Of a DNA stretch of 64,000 nucleotides, positions 49,310-59,960 are shown piece after piece. The notes under the pieces are model-generated. The model saw nothing but the letters and a program-made list of their open reading frames with translations, was not told the DNA's origin and made no database searches. Origin of the DNA: Blastococcus mobilis (GTDB lineage: Bacteria > Actinomycetota > Actinomycetes > Mycobacteriales > Geodermatophilaceae); contig NZ_FZNO01000022.1 in assembly GCF_900188025.1 (NCBI RefSeq), forward strand, positions 1 through 64,000, given 5' to 3'. The position numbers and the translations under genes are program-made. How positions within the stretch are numbered: position 1 is the first letter of the stretch; each line of letters begins with the position of its first letter.

Positions 49310-50011
49310 TCACGGCGCACCGGGTGCGTGCAGCACCTGTCCGGGCAGCAGGCGGTCGGGGTCGGAGCCGATGACGTCGGCGTTGGCCGTCCACCAGGCG
49401 TGCACCGCGCGGGCGACATCGCCGTCGGTGGGGGTCTTGCCCGACTGCTCAGCGAGCCGGGCGGCGGCGATGTGCCACAGGCAGTCACCTCGCACGACCA
49501 CGTGCGATCCCTCGTCGGGCACGGCCGAGAGATCTGCGGGCCAGTCGGGCACCGCGCCGGCCGGTGCGGCACCAGGCGCCGAGGCGGGGCCGGCGGGCCA
49601 GTCGGGCGCCTGGGCAGGGCCGGCGGCTGCTGCCGGAGGGGCCGCGACGGTGACCGCGATGCCGGCCAGCGGCGCGGCCACACCGAGCCCCAGACCCAGG
49701 ACCAGCGCGGCGCTGCGTCGTGCGCCTGCGGGCAGGACGACCCGGGTCGCCCACCGAGCCGTGCTGCCGAGGGCCCCTGGGAGGGCGGAGGCGGCGGTGA
49801 GAGCCAGACCCAGGGCGCCCCAGGCCCAGACGGCCCAGGCGAGCAGCCCAGCGGCGGCGAGGACCAGGGCATCGGCGCCGACCGTGTCGACGGTGCGCTG
49901 GGGCGAAGTGAGGGCGCCCGTCATGGCCGCGGCCGGGGGCGTGAGCGCGGCGAGCAGCACCCCGATCACCCCCATGGAGGCCGCGGTGAGCAGCAGCCGT
50001 CGCACCGACAT
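49310..50011 (-). CDS. LysM domain membrane protein
   Basis: The 233-residue product has a basic start MSVRRLLLTAASMGVIGVLLAAL with a first hydrophobic segment (6-24), two more hydrophobic stretches (about 45-70 and 95-122) and a Pro/Ala-rich linker. A C-terminal LysM domain follows: SHVVVRGDCLWHIAAARLAEQSG ... VHAWWTANADVIGSDPDRLLPGQVL. LysM binds GlcNAc-containing glycans such as peptidoglycan, so the domain should lie outside the membrane. ATG 50011 is selected because GGGAAGG lies 5 nt upstream. Role unknown; it may anchor a wall-associated complex. Its 5-prime flank is one of the few AT-rich patches. Confidence 0.85.
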   Translation of the reverse strand: MSVRRLLLTAASMGVIGVLLAALTPPAAAMTGALTSPQRTVDTVGADALVLAAAGLLAWAVWAWGALGLALTAASALPGALGSTARWATRVVLPAGARRSAALVLGLGLGVAAPLAGIAVTVAAPPAAAAGPAQAPDWPAGPASAPGAAPAGAVPDWPADLSAVPDEGSHVVVRGDCLWHIAAARLAEQSGKTPTDGDVARAVHAWWTANADVIGSDPDRLLPGQVLHAPGAP

Positions 50012-50716: not shown

Positions 50717-50974
50717 TCAGGAGCGGGACGTGCCCCCGCTCGACACCTCGGTGTCGCGGGCCGGCTTCTCGGCCGGGACCGTGCCGGCCCGGGCCTCGGC
50801 GTACTTCTGCTGGATGAAGCGTTCGAGCTCGTCGACCTCGACCCGCCACTGGCCACGGCCACCGATCTGGATGGCGATCAGTTCCTTGCGGCGCACGAGC
50901 GCGTAGGCCTGTGACCACGAGACGTTGAGGATCTCCGCGACGTCGTCGAGGGTCAGGAAGCGGGGGGTGGGCAT
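50717..50974 (-). CDS. BldC-like MerR/excisionase-type DNA-binding protein
   Basis: This small protein of 85 residues has a winged-helix start MPTPRFLTLDDVAEILNVSWSQAYALVRRKELIAIQIGGRGQWRVEVDELERFIQQKYAEAR, the helix-turn-helix of the BldC/excisionase (HTH_17) family with the RxELxAxxIGxxxxWRV wing. It lacks a MerR effector domain and ends in a disordered Ser/Gly tail. In Streptomyces BldC controls entry into development and binds DNA as head-to-tail arrays; here the targets are unknown. No integrase is next to it, so an excisionase role is unlikely. Confidence 0.88.
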   Translation of the reverse strand: MPTPRFLTLDDVAEILNVSWSQAYALVRRKELIAIQIGGRGQWRVEVDELERFIQQKYAEARAGTVPAEKPARDTEVSSGGTSRS

Positions 50975-51185: not shown

Positions 51186-51965
51186 GTGACCGCCGTCCGG
51201 CCGCCGTCCTCTGCGCCGGCGGAGGTGCCCGGCCCCACGCCGCGGCGGGTGCGCCCACCCCGTTGGCTGGACCTGCGCCTCGTGCTCGGGGTCCTCCTCG
51301 TGCTTGCCTCGGTCCTGCTGGGTGCCCGGATCGTCAGCGCGGCCGACGCCACCGTGCCCGTCTGGGCGGTCACGGGGGACCTCGCGGCCGGGACCGAGCT
51401 GAGTTCCGAGGACCTGGTCGCCGTCGACGTCCGGCTGGACGACACCGCCGCTGCCTATCTCTCCTCCGGCACCCGTCCGGAGGGGCGGACGCTGGCTCGT
51501 GCCGTGCGTTCGGGGGAACTGCTGCCCCGCACGGCACTCGAGGAGGCCGACGCGCTGGTGCAGCTCGCGCTACCGGTGCAGTCCGGCTACGTGCCACCGG
51601 GCCTGGAGCGAGGTCAGTTGGTCGACGTGTACGCCGTAGCCGATCCGGCCGCCGGCGCCACGGTCGTGGCTGACGGGAGCGTCACGCTGGTCGTCCGGAA
51701 GGCGCCGGTCCAGGCGATCGCGGGACGTTCGGAGGGAGTCCTGTCCACCCCCACGACCGCGGTGCAGGTCGTGGTGGCGGTCTCCGACGGGGACGCCGAC
51801 GAGGTGCTGGCGGCCATCGCCGGGCGGCCGCTGGTCGTGGTGGTCCACGAGTCGGTGGACGGGGACGGCGTGGCCGGTACGGCGGGATCGCGCAGCGGGG
51901 ACGCGAGCGCCCCGAGCGGTCCGGCGGCCGGCGGGACGACGTCGGCGCGCGGTCCGGCCGGCTGA
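51186..51965 (+). CDS. SAF-domain membrane protein (CpaB-like)
   Basis: The 259-residue product has a Pro/Arg-rich start, one membrane segment (LRLVLGVLLVLASVLLGARIV, about 30-50) and an extracytoplasmic SAF domain. That domain has VPVWAVTGDLAAGTELSSEDLVAVDVRL and ARAVRSGELLPRTALEEAD, followed by LPVQSGYVPPGLERGQLVDVYAV and a second beta part. SAF domains occur in CpaB pilus-assembly, flagellar P-ring chaperone and sialic-acid-type proteins. Together with the next gene (a CpaE-like ATPase, overlapping by 1 nt) it resembles part of a Tad pilus locus, but no tadA/tadB/tadC genes are in the window. GTG 51186 is used. Confidence 0.82.
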   Translation: MTAVRPPSSAPAEVPGPTPRRVRPPRWLDLRLVLGVLLVLASVLLGARIVSAADATVPVWAVTGDLAAGTELSSEDLVAVDVRLDDTAAAYLSSGTRPEGRTLARAVRSGELLPRTALEEADALVQLALPVQSGYVPPGLERGQLVDVYAVADPAAGATVVADGSVTLVVRKAPVQAIAGRSEGVLSTPTTAVQVVVAVSDGDADEVLAAIAGRPLVVVVHESVDGDGVAGTAGSRSGDASAPSGPAAGGTTSARGPAG

Positions 51966-53260
51966 TGGCCCTGCAGGTCTTCACCGCGGTCACGGGCGCG
52001 GCCTGGGAGTCGGAACTGGTCGGCGCGCTGGACCGGGCCGACCACGGGGTCACCGTCGTGCGCCGGTGCGTGGACGTCTCCGAACTGCTCGCGGCGGCCG
52101 CGACCGGTACGGGACAGGCGGCGCTCCTCTCTGCGGAGCTGCGCCGCCTCGACGGGGACGCCGTCGCCGGGCTGGAAGCGGCCGGGGTGGCCGTCGTCGG
52201 CCTGGTGGAGCCGGGTGACCAGCGTGCGGCCGACCGGCTGCGGCAGTGGGGGGTGCGGCAGGTCCTGCCGGCCGACGCCGATCCGGATGCCATCGCCCAG
52301 GCGCTGCGGGAAGCGGTCGCCGGTGCGCCGTCTCCAGGCCGGGACGTCGCCGACCCGCGGGCTGCGCTGCCCGTGCTGGGAGCGCCCGAGGAGCCGGAAC
52401 ACCGACCGGCCGGGCCCGGTCGCGTGGTCGCGGTCTGGGGGCCGGCCGGTGCTCCGGGACGGACCACCGTCGCCGTGGGCGTGGCCGACGAGCTGTGCCG
52501 GCTGGGGACGTCGGCGCTGCTGGTGGACGCCGACGTCTACGGCGGGGTCATCGCCCAGATGCTCGGCCTGCTCGACGAGTCGCCGGGTCTGGCCGGAGCG
52601 GCCCGGCTGGCCACCGCGGGGAACCTGGACTCGGCGGGGCTGGTGCGGCTGGCGTGGGCCGTCCGGCCGCAGCTGCGGGTGCTGACGGGGCTGGCGCGGG
52701 CCGACCGGTGGCCGGAACTGCGTCCGCGGGCGGTGGCCTCGGTACTGGCCGAGGCGCGTCGGCTCGCGGCGGTCACCGTGGTCGACTGCGGGTTCAGCCT
52801 CGAGGACGACGAGGAGCTGTCGTTCGACACCGCGGCGCCTCGGCGCAACGGGGCGACGCTGGCGATCCTCGAGGACGCCGACACGGTGCTGTGCGTGAGC
52901 GGGGCCGACCCCGTCTCGCTGCAGCGCAGCATCCGGGCGCTGGGCGAGCTCCGGGACGTGCTGCCCGACGTCGATCCGGTGCTGGTGGTCAACCAGGTCC
53001 GTCGGGGGCCGGTTCCCGGAGATCCGCGCCGCGAGATCGCCGAGGCGCTGGAACGCCTCGCGGGCCGTGAGGTCCGGTTCTTCCTCCCGGCTGACCGGCG
53101 GGCGACCGACGCGGCCCTCGCGACCGGCCGGACGCTCGCGGAGGTGGCGGGGGCGTCCCCGCTCCGAGCGGAGCTGCGCGCGCTCGCCGCGACGGTTGCC
53201 GACGTCACCCTGCCGGCGGGCCGGCGGCGGGGCCTCCGCCGGACCGCCGGCCCCCGGTGA
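51965..53260 (+). CDS. CpaE/MinD-like ATPase with degenerate Walker A
   Basis: The 431-residue product has an N-terminal receiver-like region (1-115) and a linker. The MinD/ParA-type domain begins VVAVWGPAGAPGRTTVAVGVADEL (about 154-176) and continues with ALLVDADVYGGVIAQMLGLLDESPGLAGAARLA, TVVDCGFSL and a coiled LVVNQVRRGPV segment. In canonical deviant Walker A motifs (KGGxGKT) the signature lysines are conserved; here both are replaced (GPAGAPGRTT), which is seen in an actinobacterial CpaE-like subgroup. It may bind but not hydrolyse nucleotide. It overlaps the SAF gene by one base. Confidence 0.82.
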   Translation: MALQVFTAVTGAAWESELVGALDRADHGVTVVRRCVDVSELLAAAATGTGQAALLSAELRRLDGDAVAGLEAAGVAVVGLVEPGDQRAADRLRQWGVRQVLPADADPDAIAQALREAVAGAPSPGRDVADPRAALPVLGAPEEPEHRPAGPGRVVAVWGPAGAPGRTTVAVGVADELCRLGTSALLVDADVYGGVIAQMLGLLDESPGLAGAARLATAGNLDSAGLVRLAWAVRPQLRVLTGLARADRWPELRPRAVASVLAEARRLAAVTVVDCGFSLEDDEELSFDTAAPRRNGATLAILEDADTVLCVSGADPVSLQRSIRALGELRDVLPDVDPVLVVNQVRRGPVPGDPRREIAEALERLAGREVRFFLPADRRATDAALATGRTLAEVAGASPLRAELRALAATVADVTLPAGRRRGLRRTAGPR

Positions 53261-54749: not shown

Positions 54750-55262
54750 GTGCGCGTGTACCTGCCTGCCACCACGACGGTCCTGCGGACGCTGGTGGAC
54801 GAGGGCACCCTCCCCGGACCGCACACCGCGTTCGCGGTCACTCCTCAGCTGCGGCAGTTCTACGAGGTGAGCGACGCCGAGGCCGACGAGGAGGAACTGG
54901 AGTACGCCGCTCTGCTGGCCGCGGCGCGGGCGAGCCTGCGACTGATCGACATCGACCCGACCGCAGCGCGACGGCGTGTGGTCGTCGCCGCTGACGTGCC
55001 CGACTCCGCCGTCCGGCCCATCGACGACCCGGACACCGACCGCGGCGCGGCGCGGGTCGAGGCCGACCTCCGGATCCGTGACGTCGCCAGCGCGCACATC
55101 GACGGCGCCGACGCGGAGGACGACGTCCGGGCCGCGGTCGGAGTCGTGCTCGAGGCCGACCTGGGCAGCGAGGACGCGCAGTTCGTCGTCGACCAGGCCG
55201 AGGGTCACGAGTTGGCCTGGTACGCCAGCCAGGAGATCGGACCAGTGCTCGACCTGCTCTGA
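54750..55262 (+). CDS. DUF6912 family protein
   Basis: The 170-residue product begins MRVYLPATTTVLRTLVDEGTLPGPHTAFAVTPQLRQFYEVSDAEADEEELEYAALLAAARASLRLI, a pattern I associate with the actinobacterial DUF6912 family. It is strongly acidic, soluble and predicted mixed alpha/beta, ending DQAEGHELAWYASQEIGPVLDLL. Function is unknown. GTG 54750 has GGAAGGAG 8-10 nt upstream, and TACGGT (54716-54721) may be its promoter. Its last 58 bases overlap, tail to tail on the other strand, the end of the EccC-like gene. Confidence 0.82.
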   Translation: MRVYLPATTTVLRTLVDEGTLPGPHTAFAVTPQLRQFYEVSDAEADEEELEYAALLAAARASLRLIDIDPTAARRRVVVAADVPDSAVRPIDDPDTDRGAARVEADLRIRDVASAHIDGADAEDDVRAAVGVVLEADLGSEDAQFVVDQAEGHELAWYASQEIGPVLDLL

Positions 55263-58200
55263 CCCTCGGTCGTGCGTGGGCGCGGCGCGATCGCTGGACC
55301 ACGACGGGCCACCTGTACCCGGTGTGCGGCAGCACCGGTGACCAGCCAGCCGCTGCCGGGGCGATGAGGCAGCGGAGTGCGCGGGGGCCGTACGCCGAGC
55401 AGGTCGGCGTCGCCGGCAGCCGGGCACAGCAGCAGGCCGGCCCGTCCGCGACGCAGCACTGCCACCGGCCCCTGGTAGTGGGTCGCCAGCTGTCCTCCGT
55501 GCGCAGCGGCGATCAGCGCCACGCGTCCGTGTGGGTCGGTCAGGTCGACCCGGGTCAGGACGGGTGCGTCCGCGGGCGCCCCGAGGTCGTCCGCGATCAC
55601 CAGGCCCGGGCGGCTGCCCAGCCCCCCGAGCCATTCCGTCGCGCCCGCCTCGTCGGCGGGGTCCAGCCGGACGACTCCGGGGATCTCCTCCCTCGGGTCC
55701 CCGCTTCGCGGAGCACGCCCGAGCCAGAGCACTGCCGCGCCGAGTGCGCCCACGTGCTGTCCGAAAGCGGTCAGCGCGGTCGTGCGGCCACTGCCGGGCG
55801 GTCCGGTCACGAGCAGGCCCCCGGTGCGGAGCAGGTCCACCGTCAGCGGCCGCCCTTCGTCACCTCCCGGTCCGATCGGGAGGAACAGCCCACCGTCGAT
55901 GTCCGGCGCCGTCGCCGAGCGGGTCGCCGGAAGAGGCAGCCGCGGATCGGCGGTCAATTCCACGATGCGCAGGGGCTGGTGGCTCAGAGGGCCGTCCGGG
56001 GGTGCTGGCGTGGTCGTGCGCGGCAGGACGATCTGGCACTCGCGAGCGTCCTCTCCCACCAGCGCACGACCGGGCGGCCGGTGCACCGGGAGACTTCGGG
56101 AGGGGATGCCGGCGACGGCGTAGTCGGCTCGATCCGGAAGGGGGAGCACCAGGCGTTGGCGAGCCACGGCTGCGAGCCGGCCGCCGGGCACGGCGCGGTC
56201 GGCGGTCACCACGCAGGTGACGCCTACGGCCGCACCGTCCCGCATCACGCGGAGGAGATGTGCCGAGCCCCGTCCCGAATCGTTCTCGTCGAGCAGCGTG
56301 GTGATGGCCTCGAGGCCGTCGACGAGCAGCAGGATCGCCGGGCCGGCATGGATCCCGGTGCCCGCCCGTCGGGCCGCGATCTCCTGGGCGAGCCGGTCGA
56401 CCAGCCGGACCGTCCGTAGCGCGTCCTCGCCGGCCACCACCGTTCCGGCATGCGGCAACGGCCCGGCCTCCGCCGCCAGTGCCGCGCCGCCGGACTCCAG
56501 GACGTGCACGTGCAGTCGGTCCGGACCCAAGCGGGCCACCGCCTCGCCCAGGACCGTCCGGAGCACGGTGGTCCGCCCGCTGCGGGGACCGCCGACGACG
56601 AGCCAGGTGCCACCCTCCGCAAGGTCGAGTTGCAGTGGCTCCTGGGCCTGGACGTCGGGACGGTCGACGAGCCCGACGGTGAGCAGGGTCCGCTCCCGGT
56701 CGGGGACCGGGGCGTCCACGTCGAGCGTGGCCGCGGGAATCCGGTCCGGCAGCGGTGGCCGCCAGGGGCGGTGCGGCGTCGGCGTTCCGACAGCGTCAGC
56801 GTGCCGTCCGACGGCACGGCACAGGCGGGCGAGGTCGCTGTCCCCGGCGGCGGGCCGTCGCTCGCCTTCGGGACGTCGCACTGGCGGCCACGCCCACGGG
56901 CGGACCTCGGGCGCCGCGCGGGACCGCAGCGGGGCGGGACCCGCCACGCGGGCGACCTGCAGAGCCGTCGGTGCGCCGCTGCCGGACCGGAGCCACGCGC
57001 GGCCGGGTACGTCGATGGGGAGATGGGCCGCCTGTGCCGTGCCCAGGACGTCACGGGACTCGGCCTCGTCGGTGGTGCGCAGGCAGATGCGCAGGCTGCA
57101 GTTCGCGCGGATCTCCGGCGACACGACACCGCTCGGCCGCTGGGTGGCCAGCACCAGGTGCACTCCCAGCGACCGGCCGCGCTGGGCGATGGCGACCAGG
57201 CCTGGGACGAACTCGGGGAGTTCCTCGGACAGACCGGCGAACTCGTCCACGACGATGACGAGTCGAGCCAGCTCGACCCGCTCGGGGAGGAACGCGATGT
57301 CGGCCACCTGATGGGCGGCCAGGATCGCTTCGCGGCGGGTGAGCTCGGCAGCCAGCGAGCGCAGGGCTCGCGCCGTGGTCTGGCCGTCCAGGTCGGTCAC
57401 CAGCCCGACCGTGTGCGGCAGGGAGGCGGCCTCCGCGAACGCCGCGCCCCCCTTGTAGTCGACCAGCAGGAAGGAGCAGCGGTCGGGCGGATGGTTCAGG
57501 GCCAGCCCCGCGATCAGGGTCTGCAGCAGCTCCGATTTGCCCGACCCCGTGGTGCCGGCGATGAGCGCGTGCGGTCCCTGACGGCAGAGGTCGACCTGCA
57601 CCGCACCGTGTGTCGTCCGTCCCAGAGTCGCGAGCAAGCAGTCCCGGGCGCGCGACCAGGAGCCGTTGGCCTCGCCGGCCTCGTCGACCCACAGCCCGTC
57701 CGTCGCCAGATCCATCAGCCGCGCCTCGCGGGGAAGACTGCTCTCGGCGGTCAGCGGAGCGAGCGCGGCGAGGTCGCGGGCCAGATCGGCGGCGAACGTG
57801 GCCGGGAGGCGATCCACGGTCACCGCGTCCCGGTCGGGCGCCCCTTGCCTGCGAAGCACGCCGACGCTGCCTGTCTCACCGGAGAGGCGCAGGACCGCGT
57901 CGACGTCCACGGACGCGTCCTCGGCGCTGTTGGCAACGGTGACGGTCACCAGGCCGACGTCCCGGCCCGCGTGCAGGCCGGCCGAGGTGCGTGGGTCCAG
58001 CGGGCAATCGACGACCACCACCAGCCAACCCGGCACCGGCGCGGGACCCGACGGACCCGGGCGAGCGGCCGCGAGCGCCCTCCGCCGCGCGATCAGGGCG
58101 GCCAACCGTGCCTGGAGGTCGTCGTTCGCGGCGCTGGTGTCCGCGTGGTCGGGAAACCGGACGTGCACTGCACCCGGGTCCAGGTGCGGCAACCAGCGGG

Positions 58201-59515
58201 CCCACGCCCAGTCGGTCAGTCGATCGGGGGCGACGAGCAGCACCAGGTCGACCTCCCCGGGGGCGTGCAACGAGCAGAGCTGGGCGACCACGGACGCGAG
58301 ACAGCCGAGCGTCCGCTCCCGGGGTCCGACGACGGCCAAGCCGCCCGTGCTCCGCAGGTCGACGACGACCGGGACATGCGGAGCGGTCCCCCGGACACGG
58401 GCTCCCTCACCGTCGATACGGATCACCCGGGTGGGCCCCGGCCCGCTGCCCAGGCGCACGGTCATCGCCTCGCCGTCGCCCCGCGTCCGGCTCCACAGCA
58501 GGGAGGTGCGCCGGCGCGCGGCCCTGGCGAGTGCTGCGAGGTCGGGATGGGCCTGTTCGGCGCCCCGGACGTCCGACCGCACGGCCTCGGCCAGCCGGAG
58601 CTCCGCGGCCTGCGCCTCGAGCGCGTGGGCCGCGGCTTCCCGCCGGCCGCTGCGCCGCCCGGACCACCGCTCGGACAGCCAGGTTCCCAGCGCCACCACG
58701 GGACTCAGCAGCGCGAAGAACAGGAAGGTCGGAGTGTGCAGCAGCCACGCCAGTGCGACGCCGCCGACCGCCGGCAGGGCGACGGCGACCCACGCCAGCC
58801 GTCGGCGCGGGGGTGGGCTCGGGGGCCGAGGGAACCGGACCTCGACCTCCGGAGCGGGCGTGGTCATGCGCGGTACAGAGCGCAGATATCGGCGACCACC
58901 AGGTCCGGGTTCGAGAGTCGCGGCCGGCGCCGACGGCCCCGCCAGGGCCACGGCGCTGGCTCCCATCCGCAGGACCGCGCCCACCGGCCACTCCCGTGGT
59001 TGCTCGCCGAGGTCGGCGCCGTCCAGCCGGCTCCCGTTGCTGGACCCGAGGTCGGCCACCGTGACTGTCCCGCCGCCGACATGGACCGCCACGTGCTGGC
59101 GGGACACGTCCGGGTCGTGGAGGCGGATCGGGACGTCGCTGCTGCGGCCGATGACGTGACTCCCTCGGCCCAACGGGACCGACCGCCCCGCGTCGGGGCC
59201 ACCCACGACGTGGAGCTCCAGCGCGCTGGAGGCCCGGTCCGGACGCCGGCGGTGGGCGGGTCGACCCAGGCCGAGGACCGCTCCGTGGTCGAACACCGAC
59301 GTGGTCAGCGGCAGGTCGTCGGCCAGCCGGGTCGAGCCTGCCCACATGCCCTCGACCGGCCGCCCGACCACCTGGCTGAGCACGGGCAGCACGTCGAGGA
59401 GCCGGTGGCGGGGCTCGACTCTGACCTCGACATCGAGCGTGCCCATGTCGCCGGAGAGGGTCCAGCAGCGCGCCGAGGACACGCCTCCGGCATCGCCGGT
59501 CGGGGGAGCGGTCAC
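55205..59515 (-). CDS. FHA-containing FtsK/SpoIIIE-type ATPase (EccC/EssC-like, type VII secretion)
   Basis: The EccC/EssC family powers export of WXG100 proteins. In this 1436-residue protein residues 26-85 form a small beta-grasp or FHA-like N-terminal unit, 98-190 an FHA domain (HVIGRSSDVPIRLHDPDVSRQHVAVHV ... ADLGSSNGSRLDG) and 241-281 two membrane segments (WVAVALPAVGGVALAWLLHTP, FLFFALLSPVVALGTWLSE). Three ATPase modules follow. The first has GTTGSGKS (about 653-660) and VIVVDEFAG (about 749); the second and third have GGPRSGRTT (about 972) and GPPGSGRTT (about 1234), with Arg instead of the P-loop Lys. GTG 59515 diverges from the WXG100-like gene; CAGGAT lies 7 nt upstream. Confidence 0.85.
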   Translation of the reverse strand: MTAPPTGDAGGVSSARCWTLSGDMGTLDVEVRVEPRHRLLDVLPVLSQVVGRPVEGMWAGSTRLADDLPLTTSVFDHGAVLGLGRPAHRRRPDRASSALELHVVGGPDAGRSVPLGRGSHVIGRSSDVPIRLHDPDVSRQHVAVHVGGGTVTVADLGSSNGSRLDGADLGEQPREWPVGAVLRMGASAVALAGPSAPAATLEPGPGGRRYLRSVPRMTTPAPEVEVRFPRPPSPPPRRRLAWVAVALPAVGGVALAWLLHTPTFLFFALLSPVVALGTWLSERWSGRRSGRREAAAHALEAQAAELRLAEAVRSDVRGAEQAHPDLAALARAARRRTSLLWSRTRGDGEAMTVRLGSGPGPTRVIRIDGEGARVRGTAPHVPVVVDLRSTGGLAVVGPRERTLGCLASVVAQLCSLHAPGEVDLVLLVAPDRLTDWAWARWLPHLDPGAVHVRFPDHADTSAANDDLQARLAALIARRRALAAARPGPSGPAPVPGWLVVVVDCPLDPRTSAGLHAGRDVGLVTVTVANSAEDASVDVDAVLRLSGETGSVGVLRRQGAPDRDAVTVDRLPATFAADLARDLAALAPLTAESSLPREARLMDLATDGLWVDEAGEANGSWSRARDCLLATLGRTTHGAVQVDLCRQGPHALIAGTTGSGKSELLQTLIAGLALNHPPDRCSFLLVDYKGGAAFAEAASLPHTVGLVTDLDGQTTARALRSLAAELTRREAILAAHQVADIAFLPERVELARLVIVVDEFAGLSEELPEFVPGLVAIAQRGRSLGVHLVLATQRPSGVVSPEIRANCSLRICLRTTDEAESRDVLGTAQAAHLPIDVPGRAWLRSGSGAPTALQVARVAGPAPLRSRAAPEVRPWAWPPVRRPEGERRPAAGDSDLARLCRAVGRHADAVGTPTPHRPWRPPLPDRIPAATLDVDAPVPDRERTLLTVGLVDRPDVQAQEPLQLDLAEGGTWLVVGGPRSGRTTVLRTVLGEAVARLGPDRLHVHVLESGGAALAAEAGPLPHAGTVVAGEDALRTVRLVDRLAQEIAARRAGTGIHAGPAILLLVDGLEAITTLLDENDSGRGSAHLLRVMRDGAAVGVTCVVTADRAVPGGRLAAVARQRLVLPLPDRADYAVAGIPSRSLPVHRPPGRALVGEDARECQIVLPRTTTPAPPDGPLSHQPLRIVELTADPRLPLPATRSATAPDIDGGLFLPIGPGGDEGRPLTVDLLRTGGLLVTGPPGSGRTTALTAFGQHVGALGAAVLWLGRAPRSGDPREEIPGVVRLDPADEAGATEWLGGLGSRPGLVIADDLGAPADAPVLTRVDLTDPHGRVALIAAAHGGQLATHYQGPVAVLRRGRAGLLLCPAAGDADLLGVRPPRTPLPHRPGSGWLVTGAAAHRVQVARRGPAIAPRPRTTEGQSRSSTGPISWLAYQANS

Positions 59516-59522
59516 GACCGGG

Positions 59523-59528
59523 ATCCTG
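59523..59528 (-). promoter_or_regulatory. Candidate -10 hexamer for the EccC-like gene
   Basis: On the minus strand CAGGAT lies 7 nt before GTG 59515, fitting the window's leaderless pattern with C in the first position. Confidence 0.4.
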
Positions 59529-59621
59529 TCGGCTGCGCCCCCGCGCCGGGGCGGAGCGGCGACGGGCTGTGGACAACGAGGAGGGTGTGGACAACGCGGG
59601 CTGCGCCGCCGTGGAAGGTCC

Positions 59622-59627
59622 TAGCGT
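59622..59627 (+). promoter_or_regulatory. Candidate -10 hexamer for the WXG100-like gene
   Basis: TAGCGT lies 39 nt before GTG 59667, leaving a leader that contains the GAGGAGG ribosome site. Confidence 0.45.
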
Positions 59628-59666
59628 TCGCCGGGACCGGGACGGACCCGGACCCGAGGAGGAATC

Positions 59667-59960
59667 GTGAAGGTCGACATCGCCACCCTGCAGTCCATGG
59701 CCGGTCAGTGCCGCGCCGAGGCCGCCGACACGGCGGGCCGGCACGCGACCCTGTCGAGCAGCATCAACGCGTCCGTGCTCGACGGGTGGACCGACAGCCA
59801 GGCGGCCCTGCAGTTCGGCGAGCTCTACGAGCAGTGGCGGATGTCCGCTCAGGGGGTCAGTGACGCCTTGACAGGAATGGGAGCACTCCTGACCAGTGTG
59901 GCCGCCTCCTACCAGCAGCACGAGGCCGACATGGCGGCCCGTATCGGCGCGATGATCTGA
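59667..59960 (+). CDS. WXG100-like secreted protein (type VII substrate candidate)
   Basis: This 97-residue helical protein has the WXG100 size and helix-turn-helix hairpin layout. The turn reads LDGWTDSQAALQF, so W41-T42-D43 replaces the usual Trp-x-Gly. The second helix (EQWRMSAQGVSDALTGMGALLTSVAASYQQHEADMAARI) ends with Y82-x-x-x-E86, the YxxxD/E signal used by type VII substrates. It has no signal peptide. GTG 59667 is preceded by GAGGAGG. It lies 151 nt from, and divergent to, the EccC-like gene. The function (effector, adhesin or housekeeping) is unknown. Confidence 0.82.
   Translation: MKVDIATLQSMAGQCRAEAADTAGRHATLSSSINASVLDGWTDSQAALQFGELYEQWRMSAQGVSDALTGMGALLTSVAASYQQHEADMAARIGAMI

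Follow-up and report, generated by a model that had tools for sequence, protein, structure and literature searches.

A two-gene type VII-like module sharing a promoter signature with DNA-uptake genes in Geodermatophilaceae

Results

Architecture of the gene pair

Positions 1 to 64,000 of contig NZ_FZNO01000022.1 of the soil actinobacterium Blastococcus mobilis (genome of 5.09 Mb in 88 contigs, 99.99% complete), hereafter the window, contain a divergent gene pair that resembles a minimal exporter of the type VII secretion system (T7SS), consisting of one membrane motor and one small helical protein. The motor is an ATPase of 1436 amino acids (aa) encoded at 55205-59515 on the minus strand, and the small protein is a 97-aa member of the WXG100 family encoded at 59667-59960 on the plus strand, with 151 nucleotides (nt) between the two open reading frames (ORFs). 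Pfam assigns FtsK_SpoIIIE (8.2e-42) and FHA (4.3e-12) to the former, with Yop-YscD_cpl covering residues 103-191, and WXG100 (6e-13) to the latter, which agrees with the original prediction, made from the DNA letters alone, of an FHA-bearing protein with three ATPase modules divergent from a WXG100 gene. Genomes, loci (or fetched stretches) and contigs are labelled G, L and C below, G000 being the genome of the window.

The ATPase, a protein of the EssC/EccC family, begins with a predicted ubiquitin/YukD-like domain (residues about 14-92, 59240-59476 on the minus strand; family alignment, Pfam and PDB profile search), which is followed by an FHA domain (residues 103-191, 58943-59209), a hydrophobic stretch presumed from its hydropathy to span the membrane twice (residues about 240-285, 58661-58798) and three ATPase modules. 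Module 1 (56936-57658) is the sole one in which both motifs, GTTGSGKS and VIVVDEF, are complete; the P-loops of modules 2 (GGPRSGRTT, 56186-56608) and 3 (GPPGSGRTT, 55316-55828) contain SGR. Across 80 aligned proteins the P-loop lysine (K660, 80/80) and the Walker B Asp-Glu of module 1 are invariant, and the corresponding arginines of the other modules are found in 77 (R981) and 74 (R1244) of the 80, so that the restriction of the lysine P-loop to module 1, first remarked on in this one protein, is nearly family-wide. The FHA positions R124, S138, H141 and N160, which we take to be the phosphothreonine residues, are invariant in a 12-sequence alignment of the family and are kept in roughly one third of the wider 80-protein set (R 26, S 27, H 30, N 26). 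The WXG100 protein has WTD at its turn and YQQHE near its C-terminus, as had been seen in the window, and both are usual in the family: the turn is WTD in 75 of 82 proteins, WSD in three and W-E in four, and YxxxE takes the form YQQHE in 78 of 82.

The assignment of the ATPase to the EccC/EssC family, and not to chromosome-translocating FtsK, is supported by several comparisons. The NCBIfam FtsK model gives it 66 bits against a cut-off of 1566, the one further FtsK_SpoIIIE protein of the genome is a separate FtsK on contig C86, and in a tree whose root was placed on FtsK by choice it falls within a fully supported Geodermatophilaceae clade. A long branch sets apart a clade of four T7SSa-type EccC proteins, and 85 FHA-type proteins lie on one side of a branch with support of 93, which is not starred. 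The proposal that the layout is closer to Firmicutes EssC than to EccC was not borne out: the protein scores below both NCBIfam cut-offs (EssC, 411 bits with a cut-off of 778; EccCa, 321 bits with a cut-off of 509), and trees with long branches do not settle closeness to either class.

The N-terminal ubiquitin-like domain

The unit preceding the FHA domain was examined with an alignment (A2) of 47 N-termini, namely that of the window and 46 of the 69 aligned earlier, most sequences with long inserts being omitted. Single Pfam scans of these 47 matched YukD in 10 (best 1.7e-4) and ubiquitin in four (best 2.8e-5), and a PDB profile search with the alignment gave ubiquitin folds as top matches (best E 1.7e-6) and the ubiquitin-like domain of EccD1 at E 0.09. 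In a held-out test, three T7SSd-clade sequences were left out of the profile, which then recovered their N-termini at E 8.2e-9, 4.4e-7 and 5.4e-7, the latter two belonging to the T7SSd-type loci L185 and L192, and the best of 1193 decoys reached 0.012. Two results speak against the assignment: the window's own domain, scanned alone, has no Pfam match, and a single Agathobacter YukD gave no convincing match with the N-terminal profile (1.5% probability). On the family profiles we nevertheless regard the N-terminal unit as a ubiquitin/YukD-like domain, so that two genes would hold all three near-universal T7SS parts (WXG100, YukD-like protein and ATPase). The Lachnospiraceae plasmid from which that YukD comes has separate genes for EsaB/YukD, FHA and EssC, one after another, matching the sequence of domains in the fused protein.

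The domain also bears on T7SSd, which Garrett et al. (2024; PMC11217815) report as having no ubiquitin-like protein. The ATPase genes of L185 and L192, which were called T7SSd by eye from gene order, size and sequence and not by Pfam, are preceded by kinase-like, small, very large and WXG100-type genes, and their N-termini suggest that the ubiquitin-like part of T7SSd is fused to the ATPase. The TsxB that seems to be missing from T7SSd would then be accounted for by the domain at the ATPase N-terminus.

Conservation of the pair in Geodermatophilaceae

A scan of 103 genomes of the family gave a WXG100 match in 101, and 109 stretches around such matches were fetched from 100 of these genomes. 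The divergent pair is present in 81 of these 100, or in 82 of 103 when the window's own genome is counted, the gap between the ATPase and WXG100 matches being 151-230 bp in 76 of the 81 and 1.0-2.5 kb in five. Among the remaining 21 genomes, 18 belong to one genus (g2) and encode a more distantly related second ATPase (35-38% identity) elsewhere; the main locus of each of the 18 has 81-201 bp between its DUF6912 and MaoC matches, and neither module gene. The others are G059, whose contig starts inside the ATPase gene with WXG100 beyond view, G066 (82% complete), where neither gene was seen and 3175 bp separate DUF6912 from MaoC, and G065 (81% complete), which was not looked at for the main locus. 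On a tree built from flanking proteins (23 g2 genomes, six outgroups) two changes are needed, and loss is not distinguishable from gain. Since both genes are so widely carried together, and are missing together from a preserved locus, the sequences indicate that the ATPase and WXG100 genes are a real two-gene unit, and the co-occurrence anticipated by the original prediction was thus found.

As had also been claimed, no other T7SS component lies nearby: the neighbours tested by Pfam between 45.6 and 63.7 kb include no T7SS gene beyond the pair. EccE, MycP and PE/PPE are not among these neighbours, and no genome-wide search was made for them. The genome holds one WXG100 match; a genome-wide search for EccB gave no match in G000, with positive controls in 10 of 10 genomes, and a search for EccD or stand-alone YukD gave a single match there below the cut-off (E 0.007). 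Matches of the latter kind above the cut-off occur in five of the eight genomes searched, the same five that have EccB. A decaying remnant of a full T7SSa would likewise be found without EccB; this origin is highly improbable and was rejected, because the module ATPase stands apart from T7SSa-type ATPases in the tree, 82 of 103 genomes keep the pair with the module-1 Walker motifs and the promoter intact, and other genera have the module alongside a T7SSa-type cluster (EccB, YukD domain, WXG100 pair).

Other genes and systems accompany these loci. A second FHA-EssC/WXG100 system, with 35-39% identity, occurs in Blastococcus-type genomes (L022, L128, L133, L151 and other g2 loci), every one of the 18 g2 genomes without the main pair among them, and lies near tadA/tadB in L128 and L151. 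In L046, L047, L048, L049 and others, two conserved opposite-strand genes (clusters in 50 and 41 loci), coding for a protein of about 180-200 aa and a multi-helix membrane protein of ~300 aa, lie between WXG100 and MaoC, a gap that measures just 110-244 bp in g1 and g2 loci. In L075 and L077 (genus g7) an extra gene, whose product presumably resembles tryptophan 2,3-dioxygenase, stands between WXG100 and the ATPase.

Relatives and their association with Tad genes

The ATPase family is spread over Actinomycetota, with T7SSd-like loci nested within it, and is not peculiar to the window. The best 80 of 586 confirmed relatives, 64 of which come from outside Geodermatophilaceae, represent Streptomyces, Actinomadura, Nocardioides, Cellulomonas, Kineosporia, Microbacteriaceae, Bifidobacteriaceae and others; annotated plasmid members are called only “FtsK/SpoIIIE domain-containing protein”. 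With a hidden Markov model (HMM) built from these same loci, a WXG100-like ORF was found on the fetched stretch in 70 of the 80 (55 of the 64 outside the family), within 1 kb in 52, and two or more Tad components were found in 21 of the 80 (19 of the 64), all of these counts being lower bounds as the stretches end early. In L148, L172 and L191 the ATPase gene and tadA are head-to-head.

This adjacency would also be expected if the ATPase were a motor of the Tad pilus or of DNA uptake, and not a protein exporter, with the WXG100 protein as its cytoplasmic ligand or regulator. We consider this unlikely. In its favour, no WXG100-like ORF was seen on the stretch at six of the 21 Tad-linked loci, and a Micrococcus luteus strain with a point mutation in Mlut_07490 was at least 1000-fold less transformable although its com promoter was still active (PMC8467076). 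The same paper describes Mlut_07490 as an FtsK/SpoIIIE-annotated protein with two membrane helices and the P-loop GTTGSGKS, encoded beside tad-1 in the head-to-head layout of L148, L172 and L191, and from this description and layout we infer that it (C5C9X9) belongs to the module ATPase family. The motor account is opposed by the high frequency of WXG100-like ORFs among the relatives, to be read with the origin of the HMM in mind, by the joint absence of the ATPase and WXG100 genes, and by T7SS-type substrates at other loci. An example of the last is L224 (3649-14631, a Streptomyces atratus plasmid), in which genes for a 2028-aa “putative T7SS-secreted protein”, a WXG100 protein and an FHA-EssC-type protein stand in a row.

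Beside the ATPases of 20 of the 80 loci a protein family of ~210 aa recurs (L185:15332-15958, L152:7792-8616, L190:6234-6839 and relatives), with no NCBIfam match in L152 and L185 and no Pfam match in L152. It is a candidate for a new T7SS component.

A promoter repeat shared with DNA-uptake genes

The intergenic region of the window contains a tandem repeat, GTCCACA-N11-GTCCACA when read towards the ATPase gene (59568-59592), whose end lies 52 nt upstream of the ATPase start codon, a -10-like hexamer TAGCGT facing WXG100 (59622-59627, plus strand) and an inverted repeat CCGGG-N5-CCCGG upstream of the WXG100 ribosome-binding site (59637-59651, plus strand). Among 77 such intergenic stretches, 75 have two copies of TGTGGA 18 or 19 bp apart and 73 have CCGGG-N3-6-CCCGG before WXG100; TANCGT follows 36/37 bp past the second repeat, on the WXG100 side, in 64 family sequences. 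The ATPase start codon lies 49-52 nt downstream of the repeat in 67 of the 75, a count that comes from one family and is not made up of independent cases. A promoter scan returned no promoter-like sites.

A search of 16 genomes for TGTGGAC-N11/12-TGTGGAC gave 133 sites, with 1-18 paired repeats per genome, and none for the reversed control. The repeat had seemed unique to the ATPase promoter at a spacing of 11, a notion dropped once spacings of 11 or 12 gave many sites. Forty-nine of the 133 sites were read, on 40 fetched stretches, and seven genomes (G000, G007, G009, G022, G024, G046 and G088) were covered completely; these hold 40 sites, four of them at the main locus. Genes were called by a simple codon-usage caller, and families at the repeats were assigned by Pfam for the window's genome and by likeness or eye for the others. 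The 36 sites away from the main locus lie next to ssb (8), comEA, DUF4192 and yraN (5 each), a WXG-like and Abhydrolase_8 gene pair (4), SAF/CpaB-like genes, tadZ and flp (2 each), recA (1) and others (2), so that 34 of 36 fall on nine gene families, mostly of DNA uptake, pilus or recombination. An ATG or GTG occurs 49-52 nt past the repeat at 28 of the 36 sites versus 75 of 936 control windows, and 35 of the 36 are not wholly within a called gene, though 82% of the stretches were called coding. The ATPase gene, with its start at this same distance, therefore has the standard architecture of the promoter set.

In the window's genome, Pfam identified Competence (ComEC, 6.6e-55), SLBB and HHH (ComEA), SSB, UPF0102 followed by ChlI (ComM-type), DUF4192, SAF/RcpC and Abhydrolase_8 at the repeats. 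It is comEA, followed by comEC, that carries the repeat; the second site of L239 was taken as comEC by eye. In L236-L238 the repeat is also found at a Tad operon and flp. We read the repeat set as a competence/Tad-pilus regulon of Geodermatophilaceae; since its signature also stands at the pair, the cell may turn on the export of protein and the uptake of foreign DNA jointly.

The repeat presumably resembles a DnaA box, and this identity was considered and rejected, only TGTGGAC being conserved and not the full TGTGGACAA/TTGTCCACA. Exact copies of TGTGGACAA/TTGTCCACA are nevertheless enriched between the genes, numbering 22 in 16,471 bp of intergenic sequence versus 45 in 1,461,520 bp of the same loci (intergenic included).

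Several observations weigh against the inclusion of the pair in such a regulon. The repeat has its reverse side towards the WXG100 gene. None of the 67 loci L128-L194 contains an exact copy of it, which confines the evidence for the regulatory link to Geodermatophilaceae. In the window's genome, none of the seven exact sites is on C45, C53 or C83, which carry paired T2SSF genes of TadB/TadC type, and no exact repeat was found within the 2.2-3.4 kb around its T2SSF genes. Repeats at comEA, ssb, DUF4192 or yraN persist in three genomes from which the pair has been lost, and the pair is thus not essential to the regulon.

Two of the 36 sites adjoin unrelated genes, and repeats by unrelated genes occur in L245 and L257, as they might if the repeat served a widely used activator and the pair were an ordinary orphan T7SS-like module about whose function co-regulation says nothing. 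The 1-18 repeat pairs per genome and the reading of 49 of 133 sites fit that account, which we nonetheless rate as improbable given the concentration of the sites of fully covered genomes on nine families and the recurrence of Tad adjacency in other orders without the repeat. About equally improbable is a DNA-damage or stress regulon in place of a competence regulon, with the module as a stress-induced exporter unrelated to DNA uptake: ssb and recA would fit such a regulon and yraN-comM, too, are repair or recombination genes, but the repeat at comEA then comEC, and at the Tad operon and flp, argues otherwise. In M. luteus, moreover, transformation needs the tad clusters (PMC4322843), and a strain deleted for comEA/EC cannot be transformed (PMC8467076, section 3.4).

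Among the genes under the repeat, DUF4192-type genes have it 50-51 nt upstream in five genomes (L232, L250, L259, L264 and L268; Pfam on L232 only) and are candidates for a new competence gene. In L233 (973-2659; C63 of the window's genome) a ComM-like ORF ends after 91 aa and is followed by an ORF that by eye is serine-recombinase-like, as if an element had integrated into comM. In L231 (4162-6020; C42 of the window's genome), L236, L237, L238 and L251, the repeat precedes genes for a weakly WXG-like protein of ~105-116 aa and a larger one of ~490-510 aa, with a C-terminal Abhydrolase_8 domain in the three that were scanned. Three of the five small proteins matched the WXG100 HMM (E 2.1e-5, 1.8e-4 and 1.3e-3) and two were outside the 40 best; in the same run 16 other proteins, some WXG-like, outscored the best of them, and the two that were scanned in Pfam had no match. 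The repeat stands at this gene pair in each of the four fully covered genomes that have the main pair, but was found in none of the three that do not. The two proteins are a candidate T7 substrate pair and effector, if one of weak WXG likeness.

Neighbouring genes and natural transformation

Outside the module, the window encodes an HTH_17 DNA-binding protein (50717-50974, minus strand), a candidate regulator, divergent from genes for a SAF-domain, CpaB/RcpC-like protein (51186-51965, plus strand) and a CpaE/TadZ-like ATPase of the MinD family (51965-53260, plus strand). The other neighbours between 45.6 and 63.7 kb are SecA, WS/DGAT, DUF6912, MaoC, DUF6758, PH and PHP, and the ORFs at 49310 and 50108 have no Pfam match. 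The SAF and CpaE/TadZ-like genes were rejected as parts of the module because they are kept where the module genes are gone: in the 18 loci without both module genes, CpaE was matched in 18 and SAF in 16, the contigs of the two others (L201 and L213) starting at or within CpaE.

In M. luteus, a screen for altered comEA/EC expression yielded hits in a divergent HTH_17 gene, a SAF/CpaB-CpaE operon and Mlut_07490 (PMC8467076). The loss of transformability in the Mlut_07490 mutant, that of a probable relative, also supports the link of the ATPase family to DNA uptake. By gene kinds and layout, as distinct from sequence, the window segment 50717-53260 is likened to Mlut_14660/14650/14640. The main text of PMC8467076 has no occurrence of “type VII” or “WXG100”, and no published link of type VII secretion with competence was found among the titles and abstract openings of the papers listed. 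The upstream signals and regulatory cascade of M. luteus transformation are described as still unidentified (PMC12849477).

Comparison with known systems

T7SSd (TsdA/TsdC) of Bifidobacterium and Olsenella (PMC11217815) shares with the module its occurrence in Actinomycetota, a core WXG100 protein and an ATPase with FHA; the tree places the window ATPase with the TsdC type, and the L185 and L192 ATPases, with the same N-terminal domain, nest within the module family. The module differs in that TsdD kinase, TsdH and TsdI are not among the window neighbours tested by Pfam, and a competence/Tad promoter signature is found instead. The T7SSb of Bacillota (EssC/EsxA/EsaB) likewise has one EssC-length ATPase with FHA, one WXG100 protein and a YukD-type part; in the window ATPase, however, the fused YukD-like domain takes the place occupied in EssC by the first FHA domain, SGR is found in modules 2 and 3, and the score is under the EssC cut-off. 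With T7SSa/ESX the module shares an FtsK/SpoIIIE ATPase, a WXG100 protein and a ubiquitin-like domain, which in ESX resides in EccD, whereas the window genome lacks an EccB match and EccC forms its own clade on a long branch.

An association of T7SS with Tad has precedents in Bacillota, where T7SSg and T7SSh lie beside Tad pilus genes and T7SSf has a TadZ-like part, a link whose meaning the authors left open (PMC11217815); the Blastococcus module adds a promoter signature common to DNA-uptake genes. Mlut_07490, compared by its published description, shares with the window ATPase the P-loop GTTGSGKS, two membrane helices and the Tad adjacency seen in relatives. In Vibrio cholerae it is a type VI secretion system (T6SS) that is tied to competence (PMC6783263); that machine is a different one, and predation, reported there, is conjectural for the module.

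Discussion

We think it moderately probable that the two genes form a type VII-like export module within a regulon for competence (DNA uptake and Tad pilus), and our verdict is that it represents a new, DNA-uptake-linked T7SS variant with a predicted export function. This reading draws on what the sequences themselves provide, namely the architecture, the two-gene unit, the promoter signature and the adjacency to Tad clusters in other orders. The original prediction of a stand-alone actinobacterial secretion system holds as far as the T7SS-type ATPase, the single WXG100 protein and the lack of an EccB match are concerned, and “stand-alone” misses the promoter shared with DNA-uptake and pilus genes.

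The working mechanism, in which export, the partner proteins, the identity of the regulator and the benefit to DNA uptake are all conjectural, would run as follows. The tandem repeat in the divergent promoter would be bound by a regulator, possibly the HTH_17 protein, whose gene lies about 8.6 kb off, and the ATPase and WXG100 genes would be turned on along with comEA/comEC, ssb, yraN-comM and (in relatives) the tad operon. Once assembled in the membrane, the ATPase would use its fused ubiquitin-like domain in place of a separate EsaB/YukD or EccD domain, bind a phosphothreonine partner through its FHA domain and draw its power from module 1. Its cargo would be the WXG100 protein, likely in homodimeric form, and perhaps also the WXG-like/alpha-beta-hydrolase pair that has the same promoter repeat. 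Such export may help a competent cell to gain DNA, either because the Tad pilus or envelope is supported or because neighbours are attacked. A bolder version, tentative and rather doubtful, is that of a competence-coupled type VII weapon, in which cells turning competent would make both a DNA-uptake machine (ComEA/ComEC, Tad pilus, SSB, ComM) and the minimal exporter from one promoter signature, the WXG-linked alpha/beta-hydrolase effector would open neighbouring cells and killing would feed transformation, by analogy with the T6SS of V. cholerae.

If the export module is indeed coupled to competence, this link may be ancient and extend across the phylum, and would then account for T7SS and Tad genes being found together in both Actinomycetota and Bacillota. 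The reading suggests a purpose for a widespread actinobacterial ATPase family and would link T7SS and Tad pili, whose repeated co-location has stood without explanation. It also offers a reason, fusion to the ATPase, for the seeming lack of a ubiquitin-like part in T7SSd. For natural transformation in actinobacteria, it would provide a regulon open to testing and defined by a promoter signature, together with a candidate regulator and, in DUF4192 and the WXG-like/hydrolase pair, new candidate genes.

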